Assembly: GCF_000194605.1 (NCBI RefSeq)
Contig: NC_015321.1
Location: 1,488,001-1,552,000, forward strand
Direction of reading: 5' to 3'
Source: Fluviicola taffensis DSM 16823
GTDB lineage: Bacteria; Bacteroidota; Bacteroidia; Flavobacteriales_D; Crocinitomicaceae
Length of the DNA: 64,000 bases
A program made the position numbers and the translations under genes. Below, piece by piece: positions 48,491-56,860 of the stretch (positions are counted from its first letter, which is position 1; every line of letters starts with the position of its first letter). A model generated the notes under the pieces. It saw only the letters and a program-made list of their open reading frames with translations, had not been told where the DNA came from and searched no databases.

Positions 48491-50956
48491 TTAATTTAAT
48501 TTTTCTTTTACTTGATCAATCATGTGTTGTGCTTGGTCCTCAAAAGCTTCCATGAGGTCTTGCATTTCATGAACAATTACGGTTTCTTTTCCCATACGTT
48601 CAATTTCTTTCAACGTTGTATAGCAATTATTTGCTCCAAAATGCTTGAAAGGCGCTGCTAATTGATGGGCCAATTCCGAAGTTTCGCTCCAGTTTTGTGC
48701 TTCGGCCAATTCTTTCATTTTGATTAACCCCTTTTCAGTCGAACTCACAAAAGTTTGAAGCAATTCTTTGTAGAAAGGCTCATTGTTATTGGTCAATTTT
48801 TGCAGACTTTTGAAGTCTGCTTCGTCTAATTCCGTTCCCATGTTGTGATCTTTATAAATGTGATACAATATCCCTCTTAATTCCTCTGGATTTACTGGTT
48901 TTGTTAGAACTTCTGCCCAACCAGATTCAAGCATTCGTTTTCTTTTTTCAGAATCCAGAGTCGCCGTCAAGCCAACTACTGGAATTTGATTCAAGGTTTC
49001 CATTTCTCCCATTTTCTGACGGAGTTCGTGACCATTCATTTCAGGCATTCGGATATCCAATAAGATAATGTCCACATCGTTGTTTTTCAACTGTTCCAAA
49101 GCTTCTAATCCGTTAGATGCTTCGAGTAAGGTTAAATTTATTCCATGAAACAGACTTCGTAGCAGTGTCCGATTAAATGGTTCATCATCTACAATCAATA
49201 CGCTCTTATCTTTTAGGAAAGAGAAATCGGTGCGAGATGGCTCTCGTGGCACATCAATCTTATCTTCGGTTATTTCAAACGGTATTTCAATGAAGAAAGT
49301 AGTTCCAATTCCTTCTTTACTATTCACCCGAATGGAGCCATTTTGCTTGTCGATGATTTGTTTGGTGATACTTAAACCTAAACCTGTCCCTCCATATTTT
49401 CGTGTAACCGTCAAATCAGCTTGCTCGAAAGGCTCAAAGATTCGTTCTTTCTGTCCTGTAGACATTCCAATTCCTTGATCTTGCACTTCAATCAAACAGC
49501 GAATTTGTTTATCATCTACCTTTTCAAACTTTAAGAGAATGGTAATCAATCCGTCTTTCGAAAATTTATTAGCGTTGCTGATTAGGTTAATAATGATTTG
49601 ACGAAAACGCAATGGATCTCCCAATACATTTGGAAAAGGAGCCTGATCTAATTCAACCACCAACTGATTGTTTCGTTCTTGTACCTGTAATTCATATTGT
49701 TCCTGGAGCATTGCAATTTCATTGGCAGGATTGAAGGCAATTTTTTCCAATTGAATATGGTCTTTTTCCAGTTTTGAAAGATCCAAAATTTCATTGGTGA
49801 TTTGAGAAAGATGTTTCACAGAATTGCGAATAATCTTCACTTTTTTAGCAGCACTTGCATTCAAGGGTTCGAAAAACAATTGCTCCGTAAAACCAGAAAT
49901 CGCATTCAAGGGAGTTCTAATTTCGTGACTCATTGTAGCCAAAAAGCGTGATTTTGCTTCTGTCAATTGATCACTTTTATCTTTTGCCAGTTCTAGTTGA
50001 AAATTCGTTTCTTTCGATTTTTTGAAAAGAGTAATGATTAAAAGAACAATCATTACAATCAGAAGAATAGAAATAATACTAAACAATAAGATGATTTGAT
50101 TGGTTTCGGCGGCAACTTGCTTCGCATGTTTGGTTTCTTTCAATAGTTCTTTCTTATCCGACAACTCAATAGCTTGGAAAATTTGACTGATATGCTTACT
50201 CAACAGGTTATTTTCGCGTTCCAAATTCAACTTGTAGAGATTCAATTGGGATTCTTTGGAAACAGCCACATTCTTAACTGATTTTATCTTTTTGGCAATT
50301 TCATTGGTGCTTTCTTGTGCAATATCTGAGGCTTTTAACTTTACTCCTGGGGCAGCTACAACTTTAGTAGGCTCAGATTGTTTATTTTTTCGTTGAAACC
50401 ATTTCTTTTTTGTTGGCTCTTCTTGTTGCGGAACTGGAACAACTTGAAGTGCATTGACCTCATCCCGAATTTCCATTTTTATTTTCGCGATTTGGCCGGC
50501 ATTCTCTAGCTCATTTTCAACGATAGCCATGGTCTCGTTCACCCGGTTTTCATTCTTAATACTCATCAAGGTATCTAAATTGAAAAACCGCGCATTCACC
50601 AAATTTCCGAGTTTCTTGATCTGATTTTGGTAGTTTGAATCAGCAGGACTATAAGATTTAAGAAGCTCTATTTTGCGGTTTGTTTGAGATTCTAAAATTT
50701 CAAAATCCAAAAGTGCGTTGGGGTTGTTTTGATACAGATAAGAGTAGGTTAAATTATCCGACTTCAAAACATTGTTGTTCAAATCTCGGACAAGAAAGCG
50801 GCGTGTTTCCTTTAAATCTGTAGGGAGTGGGCTCTCGGAAACTTGTCCCAAATGATCATAAACCCAGTATCCAGTTGTGCAAACGAAGATTAAAAGCAAC
50901 CCAATAATGACAAAGAGAATGCGTTCAAAAAGAATATTTCCCCAACTTTTTTTCAT
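48491..50956 (-). CDS. Hybrid sensor histidine kinase with receiver and HPt domains
   Basis: An 821-residue membrane kinase. It has an N-terminal membrane helix (about 12-35), a large extracytoplasmic region with long coiled coils, a second helix (about 290-312), the HisKA dimerisation region with MSHEIRTPLNAISGF (His near 342), the HATPase domain with DQGIGMS and GTGLGLSI, a receiver domain (Asp near 634 in DIILLDIRMP) and a C-terminal HPt domain with HQLAAPFKHFGA (His near 764). It probably passes phosphate to the adjacent NtrC-type regulator. The sensed signal is unknown. The ATG at 50956 is preferred because the signal-anchor begins there. Confidence 0.92.
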   Translation of the reverse strand: MKKSWGNILFERILFVIIGLLLIFVCTTGYWVYDHLGQVSESPLPTDLKETRRFLVRDLNNNVLKSDNLTYSYLYQNNPNALLDFEILESQTNRKIELLKSYSPADSNYQNQIKKLGNLVNARFFNLDTLMSIKNENRVNETMAIVENELENAGQIAKIKMEIRDEVNALQVVPVPQQEEPTKKKWFQRKNKQSEPTKVVAAPGVKLKASDIAQESTNEIAKKIKSVKNVAVSKESQLNLYKLNLERENNLLSKHISQIFQAIELSDKKELLKETKHAKQVAAETNQIILLFSIISILLIVMIVLLIITLFKKSKETNFQLELAKDKSDQLTEAKSRFLATMSHEIRTPLNAISGFTEQLFFEPLNASAAKKVKIIRNSVKHLSQITNEILDLSKLEKDHIQLEKIAFNPANEIAMLQEQYELQVQERNNQLVVELDQAPFPNVLGDPLRFRQIIINLISNANKFSKDGLITILLKFEKVDDKQIRCLIEVQDQGIGMSTGQKERIFEPFEQADLTVTRKYGGTGLGLSITKQIIDKQNGSIRVNSKEGIGTTFFIEIPFEITEDKIDVPREPSRTDFSFLKDKSVLIVDDEPFNRTLLRSLFHGINLTLLEASNGLEALEQLKNNDVDIILLDIRMPEMNGHELRQKMGEMETLNQIPVVGLTATLDSEKRKRMLESGWAEVLTKPVNPEELRGILYHIYKDHNMGTELDEADFKSLQKLTNNNEPFYKELLQTFVSSTEKGLIKMKELAEAQNWSETSELAHQLAAPFKHFGANNCYTTLKEIERMGKETVIVHEMQDLMEAFEDQAQHMIDQVKEKLN

Positions 50957-51004
50957 ATTGACACAAATTTTCAATTTGAAAAATACGATAATTTTTTTGA
51001 TCAA

Positions 51005-51329
51005 CTCTTTTCAAAATGAATTTTAACGCTTATTTAGATTGTTTTATTTTTAATTAACGGGGTTGTGAAAAATTCCTCTTTAATAAAATAGGACAATTGC
51101 ATTATTGTGTGAAGCGACTCAAAAACAAAATTCGCATAAATATCTAATAACTCAACTATGAAGTTGAGGAGCTTTGGTAGTCACAAATTGAAAAGTTTCT
51201 AAAAACGAAAAGAAATCGAACTTTTTGAAGGATATAACTGCAAGCTTCATTCTCGTTCTGTTTCTCATTCTCAAAAATAACGGCAGAAGAAAGAGTGAGA
51301 TTGAGAACGAAAATGAAGACAAAAATTAG
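51005..51329. other. Gene-free interval before hipA
   Basis: There is no gene here. It holds a 7-bp palindrome CTCAACT atga AGTTGAG (51151-51168), a 17-bp tRNA T-arm-like segment AAAGAAATCGAACTTTT (51209-51225) that is repeated at 53743-53759, and a long imperfect inverted repeat (51245-51272 against about 51293-51318, arms beginning CTTCATTCTCGTTCT), probably the hipA 3' hairpin. Confidence 0.6.
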
Positions 51330-52619
51330 CTATAAAATTAAATGTGTAATTCCGATTGAATCACGTAGTTCGGTATCTACTTTTACATCATCTGCATAAT
51401 CTTTCCAGTTCGATACTACGTTCGATACTTTATCAATTATCTCTTCAGCATTTTTAATATTCATGCTCTTACTAACCGCAAGTAGGTCTTGTCGTGTAAT
51501 GTTTTTTCTTTTGCCGTTTATACTTAGCGCATGTTGACTTACCCAATCGCTTCCTGGTCTATATGCGTGACAAACATCATAGGCAGGTGATAACTTCCAA
51601 TCTCCAGATTTATCCATTACAAAGGCAAAGTTTTTTGTATGGTCATCACAGTTTCTTGATATAACATTAAAAACCATTCTGCGGAAAAGTTCTTGTGCAC
51701 TCGGATAACTTAATCCGAGCATTCGCATGGTTTCAAAAAGCTCTTCATAACTATATAAGTTAACCTCATTAAAATCGTAGTGTCTCATAGCACAGAATGT
51801 TTGAACATGAATTTTTCCCCTTCCATGTTCCCTGTCAAAACGCTTAGTCATGAAGTGTGCTCGTTCATTCTCTTCTAGTAATCTACATTCCATCATTTGT
51901 ATCCCAGAATCCTTGGCCATTTTGTAGTATGCCATTTCCACTCGACCATATCCTTTAGATACACCAAATTGAGAATCAGACACACCATCGAACTTGATTA
52001 GCCAGTGTTCAAATCCTTTTGGTACGCTTGCTTGACCACTTCTAACTTCTCCACTATTTTCATTATACGCAATAAGAGCCTTTGCCCTTGCCCCACCTGC
52101 AGAAGAGCCAATTTTTAGAATTTCAAAAAGCGCTTTTTCCTCGTCCTCTGTTAGGTTTGTTGTGAAATCCTTCCTGCCTGTAAGTATTTCTTCTGCAATT
52201 TCAATTAGACTACCTAGTTCAATTTTAGTTGATGTATTCTTTGGTTTTGGTTGAACGGGTTCGAATTCTAGTGCTCCCATACCCCTTTCTCCAATGAAAC
52301 ATAAAGTCTCAACTGGATTTAAACTATTTGTTGGTCGTCCTTGCCTTGCCAACCATGTATTAATTAGAGCATTTCCATATTTATCAGGAAGAATATCTGC
52401 TAATAATCCAGGTAATCCTTTAAAAGTTGAGTTTTCTCTGTTTTCTGTGAACTGACACAAGTTTTCTCCTTGACTTATAGGCATTAGTATCGGTGATAAA
52501 TCAAGGCCTGTTTTTAAAAATGTCGAATCGTACTGAAAAGTACCTAAACCTGTTTCTGGATCCCAAGCTATCGCTCCAACTCTTTTGTTCCAGATATTTA
52601 CAAAGGCATTATTTATCAT
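51330..52619 (-). CDS. hipA: HipA-like serine/threonine kinase toxin
   Basis: A 429-residue HipA family kinase. Visible are the N-terminal Couple_hipA region (about 1-110), GSSAGGARAKALIAY (about 170-184, the phosphate-binding loop that can be autophosphorylated on Ser), HWLIKFDG, MTKRFDRE, the catalytic NVISRNCDDHTKNFAF (Asp near 323) and LSPAYDVCHA (metal-binding Asp). HipA phosphorylates glutamyl-tRNA synthetase in E. coli, causing growth arrest. All key residues are present. Its start overlaps the antitoxin stop by 1 bp, the usual arrangement. Confidence 0.92.
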   Translation of the reverse strand: MINNAFVNIWNKRVGAIAWDPETGLGTFQYDSTFLKTGLDLSPILMPISQGENLCQFTENRENSTFKGLPGLLADILPDKYGNALINTWLARQGRPTNSLNPVETLCFIGERGMGALEFEPVQPKPKNTSTKIELGSLIEIAEEILTGRKDFTTNLTEDEEKALFEILKIGSSAGGARAKALIAYNENSGEVRSGQASVPKGFEHWLIKFDGVSDSQFGVSKGYGRVEMAYYKMAKDSGIQMMECRLLEENERAHFMTKRFDREHGRGKIHVQTFCAMRHYDFNEVNLYSYEELFETMRMLGLSYPSAQELFRRMVFNVISRNCDDHTKNFAFVMDKSGDWKLSPAYDVCHAYRPGSDWVSQHALSINGKRKNITRQDLLAVSKSMNIKNAEEIIDKVSNVVSNWKDYADDVKVDTELRDSIGITHLIL

Positions 52620-52969
52620 TACCAGTCTGATTTTTTACTTGTTGAGTCTTTTTTTTGACCAGAAGCTTTTTGTCGTTTCTTCATTTCCATTTCTGCCAAC
52701 AGAATTGGGCTGATTTGGCTCTTCACCTCAAACGATTCGAAGACATGTAGTTTGTTGAGTATTCTTAGTACTTGAATCAATGTTATTAATTGACATCTTT
52801 TTCCCATTTCCAAATCCGAAAGAGTGGTTCTATTTATTCCCGCTCTTTCTGCTAGGTCCTTTTGTTTGATGTTCTGTTGTAAACGATGATGTTTAACAAA
52901 ATCGCCTATTGTATGAATGATTGCATCATCACTCATCCTGTATATATTCATGATGCTTTTAACCGTCAT
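52619..52969 (-). CDS. hipB: HipB-like XRE-family antitoxin/repressor
   Basis: A 116-residue DNA-binding protein with an XRE helix-turn-helix (IGDFVKHHRLQQNIKQKDLAERAGINRTTLSDLEMGKRCQLITLIQVLRILNKL, about 21-74), then a charged Lys-rich tail. It should neutralise HipA and repress its own operon. Its end overlaps the hipA start by 1 bp. Four copies of a TGATG-N8-CATCA-like box surround its start and promoter. The ATG at 52969 lies within the first box; an internal ATG at 52936 (MSDDAI) is an alternative. Confidence 0.88.
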   Translation of the reverse strand: MTVKSIMNIYRMSDDAIIHTIGDFVKHHRLQQNIKQKDLAERAGINRTTLSDLEMGKRCQLITLIQVLRILNKLHVFESFEVKSQISPILLAEMEMKKRQKASGQKKDSTSKKSDW

Positions 52970-53103
52970 AAAATTGAATTTTTAAGCTTTGTGATGTTTT
53001 TATACGACAAATATAGTTATTTTTTTGTTTAAAAAATCATTGTGTGATGGATAAAAGCATCATAAATAGCAATATTCGAATACTATGATGGATACATCCA
53101 TCT
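52951..53103. promoter_or_regulatory. Operator array for hipBA (four boxes)
   Basis: Four inverted-repeat boxes of TGATG-N8-CATCA type occur upstream of hipB: 52951-52968 (TGATGcttttaacCGTCA), 52992-53009 (TGATGtttttataCGACA), 53045-53062 (TGATGgataaaagCATCA) and 53086-53103 (TGATGgatacatcCATCT). All keep the same 8-bp spacer. The second overlaps a TATATTTG -7 box on the minus strand (53008-53015). This fits autorepression by HipB. Confidence 0.7.
53008..53015 (-). promoter_or_regulatory. Putative -7 box of the hipBA promoter
   Basis: TATATTTG on the minus strand matches TAnnTTTG and lies 39 bp before the hipB ATG, within the second operator box. No clear -33 TTTG was found. Confidence 0.6.
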
Positions 53104-53493
53104 TAATGGTTGTTAATTATACAGGGGGAAATCCTGGCCTTCCAATTCCTTTGACACCTGAAAACTCTATATGCTTGTAGCTACCCTTAAGTGTTTGCTC
53201 AGGGCTTTTGTTATCCAATATTATTATTTGTCTATTACCACCAATCATGGAAAGGTCATTAAAGAAAGAATTGACTATATCTGCTGAATAAAATCGTTTT
53301 CAAACTCCAGCAAACGAGCTTCAATTTTATTAATCTCATCCTCAAGAACATGTTTCTTAGCTAAATTTCTTTCGCCTTCAACAATTTTAAATAATCTCGA
53401 TTTGATAAAATTTGCTTTTGGACTCAGCTCTTCATCAATTTTTAATTGAAGAATACTTTTCCTTCGTTAAATGCAAATCTTTTGACTGATCAT
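53104..53493 (-). pseudogene. Decayed coding fragments of unknown origin
   Basis: Two minus-strand fragments read as protein although neither has a start. One (about 53467-53275) gives LQLKIDEELSPKANFIKSRL, then KIVEGERNLAKKHVLEDEIN and EARLLEFENDFIQQI before a stop. The other, in a different frame (about 53300-53122), gives RFYSADIVNSFFNDLSMIGG, then NRQIIILDNKSPEQTLKGS and GVKGIGRPGFPPV before a stop. They abut with a frame change and may be one broken gene. The family is not recognised; the second piece ends like the C-terminus of an ATPase-type protein (weak). Confidence 0.5.
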
Positions 53494-53632
53494 TTATAAA
53501 GGCTTCAGCGGAAGCCTTTAATGCCAAAATAAAAGCATTTAGATCTCAATTTAGAGGTGTTAGGGATATCCAATATTTTTTATTCCGATTAACGCAAATT
53601 TATGCTTAGTCCCCAGAATTTGGTCTTGATCC
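53494..53632 (+). mobile_element. 3' remnant of an ISL3/ISAon1-like insertion sequence
   Basis: From 53517 on, about 115 bp are identical to the transposase 3' end of the element at 38800 (opposite strand). They encode ASAEAFNAKIKAFRSQFRGV, then RDIQYF and QIYA before the stop at 53607-53609, and end GGTCTTGATCCG, the element's terminal repeat. Upstream the match decays. The 5' part of this copy is gone. Confidence 0.9.
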
Positions 53633-53665
53633 GAAAAAAAGCTGATGAAGACAAATGATAAGAGC

Positions 53666-53736
53666 GAGCAACAGTGTGAGAGAAGAGGGCAATAAAAAAG
53701 CCGATGAAAATCATCAGCTTTTTTATTGGTACCTCG
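53666..53736. repeat. Duplicate of the tRNA-Leu 3' end and its terminator (att-like copy A)
   Basis: These 71 bp match 54541-54613 (73 bp) except for a 2-bp indel. They end with TGGTACCTCG, the reverse complement of the 3' end of tRNA-Leu including CCA, and contain the stem-loop terminator. Just beyond lies a T-arm-like GAAATCGAAC. The pair flanks the gene at 53806. Confidence 0.85.
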
Positions 53737-53805
53737 AAGCGGAAAGAAATCGAACTTTTGTGGAGAAGATATTACGTCAATAGTTCAACTTTATTTTCAA
53801 AGAAG

Positions 53806-54339
53806 TTATAAGCCCTCTCTCAAAAGAACTGATATAAACCAAATGATGGGTGAACAAACTAATATACCTGTAATGCTTCCTAAAACAATTGTCTGATTTC
53901 GATTAATTTTTATTGAATCAAATTTTCGTCTCCAAAAAAAGCTTGTAATAAGAAACATCAGAACCATAAAGAAACTTAGAATATAACCAACTTCGGTTCT
54001 TGGAGCAATTGGTCCATAAATGGCATAAGGATTAGAGAAAAGCAAAACAGCCAAAAATTTAATTGAAAAAAAAGTCCAAATCATAATATTGGTTATTCGA
54101 AGAATAGTCCTGTTGAAAGTAAATGCTGCAACTGCCACACAAGTGAAACAGTAAAAATGGGTTAAAACGCTCAACGTTTCAAATCCATAGACCACTCTTT
54201 CAACAATCCCGTTTTCCGTTTCATTGAATTCAAAATAAGTACATACAGGAAGAAAAATGGTTAAGGAAATTAATATTCCGGTTATTGAAGCAACAACCGC
54301 CATTTGCTGTTTAAGATCCCATTTATTCAGGAGTTTCAT
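53806..54339 (-). CDS. Hypothetical membrane protein between tRNA-end repeats
   Basis: A 177-residue protein with four or five predicted helices (MAVVASITGILISLTIFLPV; FYCFTCVAVAAFTFNRTILR; VGYILSFFMVLMFLITSFFW; TIVLGSITGILVCSPIIWFI). No family recognised. It is the only gene inside the segment flanked by copies of the tRNA-Leu 3' end and could be cargo of a small integrated or decayed element. Function unknown. Confidence 0.65.
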   Translation of the reverse strand: MKLLNKWDLKQQMAVVASITGILISLTIFLPVCTYFEFNETENGIVERVVYGFETLSVLTHFYCFTCVAVAAFTFNRTILRITNIMIWTFFSIKFLAVLLFSNPYAIYGPIAPRTEVGYILSFFMVLMFLITSFFWRRKFDSIKINRNQTIVLGSITGILVCSPIIWFISVLLREGL

Positions 54340-54540
54340 GCCCTTAGATATTATCGGTGGATTAATTGATTCTAAAAATAAAGAATAAATTCTGACAGAA
54401 CTTCAATATAAACCTCATTTCTTTTCTTGCACTAAAAAATAACAGCTATGAACATCAATTTTTCGATTTAGCGCAATCTCACACTCGGTTCTCACACTCA
54501 CACTGTAAAAAAGCTGATGGATAGAGCAATCGAGAAGAGT

Positions 54541-54613
54541 GAGCAACAGTGTGAGAGAAGAGGGCAATAAAAAAGCCGATGAAAAAATCATCAGCTTTTT
54601 TATTGGTACCTCG
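54541..54613. repeat. tRNA-Leu 3' end and terminator (att-like copy B)
   Basis: This is the genuine tRNA-Leu 3' flank. It contains the terminator stem AAAAAGCCGATGA...TCATCAGCTTTTT (54568-54602, minus-strand reading) and the tRNA end. It is duplicated at 53666-53736. Confidence 0.85.
54568..54602 (-). terminator. Terminator of the tRNA-Leu transcript
   Basis: A stem AAAAAGC(C)GATGA/TCATCAGCTTTTT with flanking A- and T-runs lies directly after the tRNA-Leu 3' end on the minus strand. Confidence 0.8.
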
Positions 54614-54688
54614 GGCCGGAATCGAACCGGCACACCCGAAAGTACAGGATTTTGAATCCAGCGCGTCTACCAGTTCCGCCACCGAGGC
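54604..54688 (-). tRNA. tRNA-Leu (CAA)
   Basis: An 85-nt tRNA with acceptor GCCTCGG/CCGAGGT, a long variable arm of the leucine class, anticodon loop TTCAAAA (anticodon CAA), T arm CCGGTTCGATTCCGG, discriminator A and an encoded CCA. Its 3' end is duplicated 877 bp downstream. Confidence 0.97.
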
Positions 54689-54790: not shown

Positions 54791-56860
54791 TTATTTAATA
54801 ATTTTCAAGACTGCTCGCTGATCTCCTTTTGTAATCTCAATGAAGTAAACCCCGTTTGCCAATTCGTGTAAATCAGTTATTGTTAACGATTTATCGGTTG
54901 TCGATTCCATTGTTATTTCGTGTGTTTTAATCATTCTTCCAGAACCGTCTCGGATAGTTAATTGTGCCCCAACTAAATCTGTTTGACTCCATTCTACTGT
55001 AATAATAGATGAAAAAGGATTCGGATAAGCAGTAATTTTATGAGTATTTACCAAATCCTGAATTCCAAGCATACTACAGCTATTCAATGTTCCTGGCATG
55101 TTTATATCTAACCATTCCAACCTTCTTTGAAACCAAGATTTCAAGCGCTGAACTTCTTCTGCGTATGTTTGACTTGGCGCTTGGACTTCTGGCGTTCCGG
55201 TTGCACTGCCCAAATGTCCCCAAGTTTGATAATGCCAAACCTGACTTTCATTCACAGCTTGGGCTACCGAATCAATTTTTGCATAGATGTAGGATTCTTT
55301 CAAAATGCTTCTCCTCATATCGTCATAACGACAACGTAGTTCATTGGCGAACAAAGTGTCTTCCAACAAACGAATGTACCATCCAGGAGCATTCACATCC
55401 TGATCGCATGCTCCATACATGAATTGAGAGCCGTCTTCAGAGCCGCTCCACATGTCTTTTTCAGCCCAATCGAAATCCCAAACCGGACCAGCTTTCATTT
55501 TTTTCACCGTTCCATCTACTTTATCTTTGTCTTTGGAGAAAAAACGACTTTTCTTAAAGCCATCTCCGTTTCTGCAAACTTCATTTACAATAAAATAATC
55601 AATGAAAGAAGGAACATCGATAAACGCGCGGTAGCCCAAACTTGGATGTGCGAAATTTGATCCGTACAAAGCATCTTCGTAATCATCGATGAAGTTTTGG
55701 ATATAAGTCGTTTGCTGTGGCATCAGATCTTCTGGTTTTGGATACACGTAAACCATGTGAACATCCAATCCTGGGAATCCAATCGGACTGTGATTTAACA
55801 GCCACGAATCGTTGTTATTCCAATAATCGATTTTCAAAATATAACCCCCAGTAAGATCTACGCCAGCAATTTCGGTTGGGTCCAGTTTATTCACATCTAC
55901 GCGATTATTGTCGCGTTTGATTTTTTCTCCTAGTAAATAAATTCCCTGATATTCTCCGTTCATGACCACGTCCACCAAACGCATTCTCGTTGCATAATGA
56001 TCCATGGAATCAAATAGGTGGAAGGGAAGAATATTTCGAGCAAAAGATTTGTCGTTGTAATTTGCTAATAGCACCCAATCACTTTCAGCGGGCATTCCAA
56101 GTAAGGAAGAATCAATTGCATTCCCGTTGATATCCCATGTTTCAAGTGCGTAAGGCTTTTGTGGAAGCGATAAAGAATAGTTCCCACGGTATTCGATGCC
56201 AATTTTTCCATTGTATTCATTCGGAGAATCGCTCATGTAATTTCGAATTCCTTGTCCATTGAACCGAATTTTCATGTCTGCCATTACCTTTGGGTCATTC
56301 TGAATCACATTTCCATTCGTATTGATTTCAACAATGGGCAAAAGGGAAGAAGAGAATGCAAAATAACCAGCTGGGTTATTTCCAAACGCAATCGAAAAAG
56401 AAAGAACATTTCCTTGATCTCCACCATAATTATCATTCACCCGTAATTTCCACGTTCCATTCGGATTTTGACCGTTGTTGATCAATCCAATCTGTCCGAC
56501 TGGTTTGAATGTTCCTGTATAAGGTGCTGTTCCTGAAGCTAAAATGGCAGCTGCATTTGCATTGAAACAGGTATTCGTAAAGTTGTCATCGGCACCGCCT
56601 GTATTGGAAAATAGCAAAACGGTCGTTCCATCGGGAGCAACAATCCAAACTGTTAAATCAGCATCGTACGTATGTGTCAAATTGATACAAACAGTTTCCA
56701 AACCAAAATTTGAGGTATCAACTGCATTTGGAAGTCCATTAACGGCAACAGGAATATCAATTGTTGCGTTGTCATTAATTGATCCACTTCCGCCAGTAAA
56801 TGTTTGACAAAACACAGAATAAGAGATGCTTAGAAATAAGCAAAGAAGAGAGTTCTTCAT
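54791..56860 (-). CDS. CotH kinase-like secreted protein with P-domain and T9SS sorting domain
   Basis: A 689-residue secreted protein with a signal peptide (ending YSVFCQ), a proprotein-convertase P-domain (about 40-155: CINLTHTYDADLTVWIVAPDG ... GTWKLRVND), a CotH domain (about 175-590) with the nucleotide-binding type motifs GIYLLGEKIKRD and GPVWDFDWAEKD, and a type A C-terminal sorting domain (ITAYPNPFSSIITVEW ... GVYFIEITKGDQRAVLKIIK) for type IX secretion. CotH proteins phosphorylate secreted proteins in spores. The target here is unknown, but it should act at the cell surface or outside. Confidence 0.9.
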   Translation of the reverse strand: MKNSLLCLFLSISYSVFCQTFTGGSGSINDNATIDIPVAVNGLPNAVDTSNFGLETVCINLTHTYDADLTVWIVAPDGTTVLLFSNTGGADDNFTNTCFNANAAAILASGTAPYTGTFKPVGQIGLINNGQNPNGTWKLRVNDNYGGDQGNVLSFSIAFGNNPAGYFAFSSSLLPIVEINTNGNVIQNDPKVMADMKIRFNGQGIRNYMSDSPNEYNGKIGIEYRGNYSLSLPQKPYALETWDINGNAIDSSLLGMPAESDWVLLANYNDKSFARNILPFHLFDSMDHYATRMRLVDVVMNGEYQGIYLLGEKIKRDNNRVDVNKLDPTEIAGVDLTGGYILKIDYWNNNDSWLLNHSPIGFPGLDVHMVYVYPKPEDLMPQQTTYIQNFIDDYEDALYGSNFAHPSLGYRAFIDVPSFIDYFIVNEVCRNGDGFKKSRFFSKDKDKVDGTVKKMKAGPVWDFDWAEKDMWSGSEDGSQFMYGACDQDVNAPGWYIRLLEDTLFANELRCRYDDMRRSILKESYIYAKIDSVAQAVNESQVWHYQTWGHLGSATGTPEVQAPSQTYAEEVQRLKSWFQRRLEWLDINMPGTLNSCSMLGIQDLVNTHKITAYPNPFSSIITVEWSQTDLVGAQLTIRDGSGRMIKTHEITMESTTDKSLTITDLHELANGVYFIEITKGDQRAVLKIIK

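Follow-up and report, generated by a model that had tools for sequence, protein, structure and literature searches.

What assembled the repeat-bounded DNA beside the tRNA-Leu(CAA) gene of Fluviicola taffensis DSM 16823? The gene lies in the 64,000-nt stretch that we analysed as a whole (the window; contig NC_015321.1, positions 1,488,001 to 1,552,000), for which a sequence-only reading had proposed successive integrations at the tRNA followed by decay. Our comparison with relatives, in which genomes, contigs and loci carry G, C and L numbers (G000 is the window's own genome), indicates that mobile elements of a large-serine-integrase clade, found mostly in Bacteroidota, likely built up the region at tRNA-Leu(CAA) as an accretion island that has since decayed. 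At least two integrations were probably stacked at this site, with the integrase since lost.

The flank of the tRNA gene is present more than once in the window. A repeat search paired 53652-53710 with 54527-54585 (93%) and 53707-53744 with 54584-54621 (92%), 875-877 bp apart start to start, and 97 of 107 columns are identical in a global alignment of 53636-53737 with 54508-54614. The duplicated tRNA-Leu 3' end and terminator noticed earlier are thereby borne out, and the outer flank is repeated as well; the length first given for the copy was about 30 bp too short. The 17-mer AAAGAAATCGAACTTTT recurs as described, exactly, at 51209 and 53743. Its expected number per window is 0.13 at up to two mismatches, and the whole 4,633,577-bp genome holds three sites at up to one mismatch, only these two being exact. 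The 51209 site adjoins a third flank copy that the sequence-only reading had missed, 51247-51325, whose 79 nt share 91% identity with the flank abutting tRNA-Leu in G003. The core GGTACCTCG is present at 53728 and at the tRNA end, an attL/attR core shared with the target in this arm (arm 1) only. With its counterpart in G008 (below), 53728-53759 has the look of an attR, a distal attachment arm, and the 51209 site (arm 0) that of an older, decayed one; an exact 22-mer at 51215-51236 is common to arm 0 and the G013 arm.

The sequence of arm 1, GGTACCTCGAAGCGGAAAGAAATCGAACTTTT, is letter for letter the same over its 32 nt as the distal arm of an integrase-bearing element in G008. A search of 200 genomes of the family for the arm pattern, with up to three mismatches, returned 10 sites in 7 genomes (one of them, in G160, at three mismatches), as compared to 2 matches for the reversed pattern used as a control. 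In G008 the arm lies at C11:40508, by the CotH gene and 28.5 kb from an intact tRNA-Leu(CAA) (C11:11900-11982). The tRNA end of this island encodes a 573-aa integrase with Resolvase (PF00239) and Recombinase (PF07508) domains and similarity to PHROG integrases, and the enzyme behind the window island is accordingly most likely to have been a large serine integrase and not a tyrosine integrase. The G008 integrase frame ends ...KKNGTVDKNYLLSRS-VPRAGIEPAHPK..., and from VPRAG on it is antisense tRNA-Leu. At the far end the same core is joined in frame to the tRNA-mimicking arm GCGGAAAnnnATCGAACTTTT, and the distal arm read in the integrase frame gives VPRSGKKSNFLADI. Because the distal arm reads on in the same frame, the core is placed within the 3' end of the integrase gene, whose tail should therefore be exchanged on integration. 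The G008 island encodes DNA methylase, patatin-like, endolysin-like and tail-fibre-like proteins (10 proteins scanned with Pfam and 10 with PHROGs, overlapping sets from part of the island), and with these proteins it looks phage-derived.

An integrase and an arm also bound approximately 27.6 kb at tRNA-Leu(CAG) in G007 (C3) and approximately 32.6 kb at tRNA-Arg(ACG) in G013 (C18). Seven of the 14 genomes of the genus contain a total of 11 full-length integrases, and ARAGORN places a tRNA at the 3' end of eight: Leu(CAA), Leu(CAG), Met, Arg(ACG) twice, Arg(TCG), Arg(TCT) and Phe. The other three are L074 at a contig end, L066, whose end is tmRNA-like by eye, and the copy in the window's own genome (L063, G000:C1:507130-508710), which is full length and carries PF07508.

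These arrangements suggest how the island may have grown. In intact relatives the integrase gene points at the tRNA, its frame crossing the core at the tRNA 3' end and running on antisense into the tRNA; recombination would occur within the core. Each integration would leave the tRNA intact and supply the element's own terminator, while the former terminator would move to the far end (attR) and the C-terminal tail of the integrase would be swapped. The next element would enter at the tRNA and so push the old arms outward. Arm 1 (53728) and arm 0 (51209) would record two such events in the window, followed by loss of the integrases and most of the cargo, with an insertion sequence (IS) end and hipBA left within the debris.

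The same locus in relatives fits this course of events. Five of 12 same-genus tRNA-Leu loci (L021, L022, L023, L026 and L027) have both the histidine-kinase and the CotH neighbours of the window, and the interval differs among them; the histidine kinase is inverted in L026. With variable content between conserved outer genes, the window region is, by sequence, a tRNA-site genomic island. In G013 the same duplication encloses different content (1.5 kb), and its histidine-kinase region and distal copy are a mere 180 bp or so apart, so hipBA is absent from that place. A gene in the G013 interval (L023:8789-9754) matches TIR/CAP12-PCTIR and nucleoside deoxyribosyltransferase profiles below their cut-offs, which suggests a defence gene. 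The longer version with an integrase that the sequence-only reading had proposed to look for exists in G008. Outside the G008 arm stands the terminator type that still abuts the tRNA in G010 and G012, as expected if integration displaced the terminator. Successive integrations at tRNA-Leu with later decay are thus supported by G013, G008, G010 and G012. The observation named as a refutation, the same duplication with nothing between the copies, is approached by G009, where the arm lies about 155 bp from the tRNA with no gene between; the terminators at arm and tRNA differ in type there, hence this is no plain duplication. The tRNA-Leu(CAA) gene is inverted relative to its neighbours in L021 (G001) and L028 (G008).

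To see how far the overlap of integrase and tRNA extends, we searched contigs with an alignment of the 11 genus integrases and analysed the best 80 of at least 339 relatives; the 80 include the G008 locus (as L083), and both search peptides lie in the N-terminal half, so that there was no selection for the tail. In 64 of these best 80 the integrase open reading frame (ORF) takes in a tRNA or tmRNA 3' end, at codon 494-526 from the match start. The targets are Arg (n = 36), Leu (14), Met (3), Lys (2), Glu (2) and tmRNA (2), with Ala, Phe, Gln, Pro and His once each. Directly after the tRNA, a hairpin is present in 64/64, inside the integrase coding sequence and nearly always with a U run (by eye). 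When the last 16 codons were re-drawn 300 times each with the gene's own synonymous codons, the mean hairpin energy was −6.7 kcal/mol as compared to −19.9 for the native sequences. The mean z was −4.5 (range −7.9 to −1.1) versus −0.16 for windows elsewhere in the same genes; 48 of the 64 hairpins beat all 300 shuffles and 56 were reached by three or fewer. On the other strand, the last integrase codons form an intrinsic-terminator-like hairpin that could replace the displaced tRNA terminator.

Among viral sequences, an IMG/VR scan with the G008 integrase gave no match, and a scan with the integrase alignment gave 44 loci, mostly distant, of which seven were examined. L250 keeps the hairpin but has a non-tRNA tail, L251 is cut, L252 stops at a contig end with a tail resembling a tRNA, and L254 and L258 are uninformative. 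L255 and L256, which are alike, end in tRNA-Ala sequence with no evident hairpin. L256 (IMGVR_UViG_3300029705_003524) is a distant serine recombinase on a viral contig whose overlap with tRNA-Ala lacks an evident terminator hairpin; the targeting of tRNA genes may thus extend beyond integrases that have the hairpin.

Related flank repeats also form arrays at other tRNA genes of the genus. The palindrome-terminator flank AGNGNGAGAGAAGAGNGCAANA, searched at up to two mismatches, occurs at 46 sites in 11 of the 14 genus genomes versus 4 matches of the reversed pattern. Of 39 readable flanks, 13 adjoin a tRNA or tmRNA (Leu, Arg, Lys, tmRNA), at 34-45 nt in 12 and at 131 nt in one. Another 10 adjoin a tRNA-like arm, a descriptive count since the regular expression for the arm was written after examples had been seen, and 16 adjoin neither, some being truncated or at contig ends. 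Four flanks step outward from tRNA-Arg(TCG) in G001, two of which differ at about 5 of 161 positions, and in the window's own genome two flanks lie outward of tRNA-Leu(GAG), with arms GTGCGCA..TTCAAAGTTCGAACC. On G013:C18 a flank unit sits just outside the arm of the 32.6-kb element, the newest there. The flank unit outside the newest element's arm, together with the outward-stepping arrays, supports growth at the tRNA end. Four-helix-bundle genes (TIGR02436, S23-like) occur in intervals by tRNA-like arms in four genomes (L033:6323-6670 and L034:5002-5511, assigned by profile; L016:980-1309 and L224:8963-9316, by eye), and an AbiEi-type antitoxin gene (L224:10501-11571) lies by the tRNA-Leu(GAG) of the window's genome.

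Several results weigh against an origin from serine-integrase elements. Between 51005 and 54603 there is no integrase ORF of 50 aa or more, as the sequence-only reading had noted, and the core of arm 0, aligned with the other arms, is mutated. The tRNA-proximal unit is only 877 bp long and has an ordinary tRNA flank instead of an integrase-coded terminator, and its right end is for that reason unexplained by simple decay of a full element. The own-genome integrase L063 has no intact tRNA at its end, only partial tRNA-like sequence by eye. Among the best 80 relatives, 16 lack the overlap: four run off contig ends (L104, L117, L151 and L162), L140 has a tRNA-Arg 14 nt past an early stop, and 11 have no intact tRNA at the end. 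By eye, several of these 11 end in sequence that is tRNA-like or part of a tRNA, which is what an attP or a tandem junction would give. Eight of the 64 hairpins were reached by more than 3 of the 300 shuffles. The hairpins fall into 27 clusters at 75% identity and are therefore not one copied sequence; the loci are nonetheless related and not independent. In a phylum-wide sample, PF07508 genes were found in 28 of 148 genomes, and 13 of 30 Recombinase-domain loci (of 51 matches) overlap or abut a tRNA (≤30 nt). The tRNA overlap is thus common among Bacteroidota serine recombinases and not universal, and others, such as 505-aa genes, are without it. Finally, the integrase of L087, from a member of the Flavobacteriia, has no relative in phage or plasmid collections at E ≤ 1e-30.

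The small units leave room for two accounts of their own. An excised circle of arm, gene and flank that re-entered at the tRNA would give the observed pattern, and recombination with empty-site DNA also could. On the latter account, a real element integrated once and was then mostly replaced by incoming DNA of an empty-site strain, joined by homology on the tRNA side and illegitimately at the other end, with the flank duplication as a repair product. This concerns the small units and is compatible with construction of the island by serine-integrase elements; we regard it as quite possible, with a chance clearly below even. It would account for flank copies that are near identical within one genome (those at Leu-CAA in G013, and two in the Arg array of G001 at about 97%) and for a tRNA-proximal unit in the window without an integrase-coded terminator. 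It fits poorly with G009 and G007, where the terminators at arm and tRNA differ in type, and with the recurrence of the arm-plus-flank arrangement, enclosing different genes, in several genomes and at several tRNA genes. A tentative and rather unlikely proposal is that the tRNA genes of the genus are entry points of cassette arrays, in which tRNA-targeting serine integrases acting in trans capture, at the tRNA end and one by one, small units that lack an integrase and consist of an arm, one or a few genes, a palindrome with terminator, and a core. On that proposal the tRNA would play the part that attI plays for integron cassettes, and the terminator brought in by each unit would keep the tRNA gene functional.

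Other origins for the repeats have less in their favour than integration by serine-integrase elements. Tyrosine integrases at tRNA 3' ends are the rule, and islands of that kind could have left the repeats, with the serine integrases as coincidental neighbours. A tyrosine integrase is reported at tRNA-Arg in Riemerella, also a flavobacterium (extracts of PMC6764341). In G008, however, the partner of the identical arm is a serine integrase with a frame that crosses the core, and serine integrase and arm go together likewise at tRNA-Leu(CAG) and tRNA-Arg(ACG), which makes the tyrosine origin improbable, although no search of the relatives was aimed at tyrosine integrases. Duplicated terminators alone could also come from a plain tandem duplication of the tRNA end with its terminator, into which genes happened to insert afterwards, and G009 is gene-free between arm and tRNA. 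We judge it very improbable, since the arm is more than a decayed tRNA end: a non-tRNA sequence, with extra nucleotides ahead of ATCRAAC and CTTT after it, occurs in close versions at 9 places in 6 genomes of 2 genera, a form that the search pattern itself required, and one such arm ends the 28.5-kb island in G008. A chromosomal integron array with attC sites would explain the one or few genes per interval, the repeated recombination-like joints and the toxin-antitoxin-like cargo. The attC boxes are RYYYAAC and GTTRRRY, and one small joint of the G013 tRNA-Arg array (C18), GTTAGAC, fits the latter. By eye, neither GTTCGAT of the window arms nor GTTTGAC of the remaining tRNA-Arg joints in G013 fits the box; with a tRNA as the target and serine recombinases at the joints, an integron is extremely improbable, although no search was aimed at IntI.

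How does such an island compare with known systems? Staphylococcal SCC elements likewise use serine recombinases, accrete at the 3' end of one conserved gene and leave recombinase-free remnants, but have a single protein-gene target whereas many tRNA genes appear to be targets here. Prochlorococcus tycheposons are likewise small elements that carry cargo, lie at tRNA genes and have partial tRNA repeats, and differ by their tyrosine recombinases. Reports of serine integrases usually place them at protein genes. At tRNA sites, islands and prophages that use tyrosine integrases (for a flavobacterial case, see PMC6764341) also target the 3' tRNA end, keep the tRNA intact and leave a partial tRNA copy at the far end; in contrast, the large serine integrase ORF described here crosses the core, its end could supply the terminator, and the distal arm only mimics the T-arm. 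Streptococcal integrative and conjugative elements with single serine integrases at rumA also have one direct repeat inside the serine integrase gene, but their target is a protein gene and no terminator role is mentioned in the extracts of PMC4701971. Archaeal "suicidal" tyrosine integrases, such as that of SSV, also hold the attachment site within the integrase gene, which is altered on integration (PMC8371274, in extract); there the enzyme is of the tyrosine type and the gene is split so that the catalytic part is separated, whereas here the C-terminal tail alone would be exchanged.

The published record, covered through titles and the starts of abstracts with most subscription papers outside this coverage, gave no description of Bacteroidota serine integrases with tRNA targets or of an integrase-coded tRNA terminator. 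In extracts of the respective papers, 16 of 23 tyrosine systems of M. abscessus lie at tRNA/tmRNA sites and the serine-type satellite does not (PMC10654092), Riemerella has tyrosine integrases (PMC6764341, PMC9745183), and the word "tRNA" is absent from the main text of PMC10083194; the extracts covered also came from PMC12884075 and PMC10865867. The interest of the window island lies in the class of element to which it points, a clade that sits at tRNA/tmRNA genes in 64 of the best 80 loci. The end of the integrase gene would double as the terminator of the target, a protein-coding end being an RNA hairpin on the other strand, and this would explain how tRNA expression survives repeated insertion. 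To our knowledge, integrase/attB tools are few in Bacteroidota. If the proposal is correct, attachment sites could be predicted directly from the integrase gene, giving many integrase/attB pairs for the phylum, and layered islands could be read by counting and dating their distal arms.

The features of the window island are listed below.

Features of the tRNA-Leu(CAA) island and its neighbours (positions in the window)
Feature	Position	Strand	Remark
tRNA-Leu(CAA), putative integration target	54604..54688	-	ARAGORN
tRNA terminator now in place (predicted)	54565..54605	-	18-nt arms 54565-54582 / 54588-54605, 94% complementary
tRNA-proximal flank copy, palindrome and terminator ("right end")	54508..54603	.	
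Displaced flank copy, including terminator 53690-53728	53636..53727	.	
Putative distal attachment arm 1 (attR)	53728..53759	+	in-frame reading VPRSGKKSNF
Putative older, decayed distal arm 0	51198..51237	+	
Third tRNA-flank copy, truncated	51247..51329	.	
hipA-type kinase toxin gene, candidate cargo only	51330..52619	-	PF07804, PF13657
hipB-type HTH antitoxin gene, candidate cargo only	52619..52969	-	
Decayed open frames	53117..53466	-	no Pfam family
ISL3-type transposase end (IS remnant)	53490..53609	+	PF01610, below cut-off
177-aa hydrophobic ORF	53806..54339	-	stop 46 nt from arm 1
Outer neighbour, histidine kinase/response regulator	48491..51004	-	
Inner neighbour, CotH-domain protein	54791..56860	-	

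The genes between the repeats are those that the sequence-only reading had described: hipBA, decayed fragments, an IS remnant and a membrane-protein gene. HipA contains both listed domains, thus a kinase with its N-terminal coupling domain, and has a HipB-like helix-turn-helix (HTH) partner gene upstream, the composition of a predicted HipBA toxin-antitoxin system. We dropped hipBA as proven cargo: HipA relatives are common, in 65 of the 200 family genomes at E ≤ 1e-40 with the own genome counted, and the closest, 87% identical in G020 of another genus, has no recognisable arm close by. Among eight further loci with HipA relatives, no arm was recognised by eye in the six readable flanks after hipA; the other two are uninformative, as L237 stops at the gene and a different ORF was picked in L239. 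The transposase remnant is a 39-aa end that matches its profile at E 2.9e-4, with 21.1 bits against a cut-off of 23. The 177-aa ORF, hydrophobic by eye, matches no credible Pfam or NCBIfam family; its matches in 7 of the other 199 genomes of the family are all distant (24-27% identity). Upstream of three different tRNA terminators (G000, G009 and G003 types), in window 54479-54603, L027 and L026, the flank can be read by eye as P - T5' - P' - T5' - T3', a hairpin with the 5' half of the neighbouring terminator repeated in its loop.

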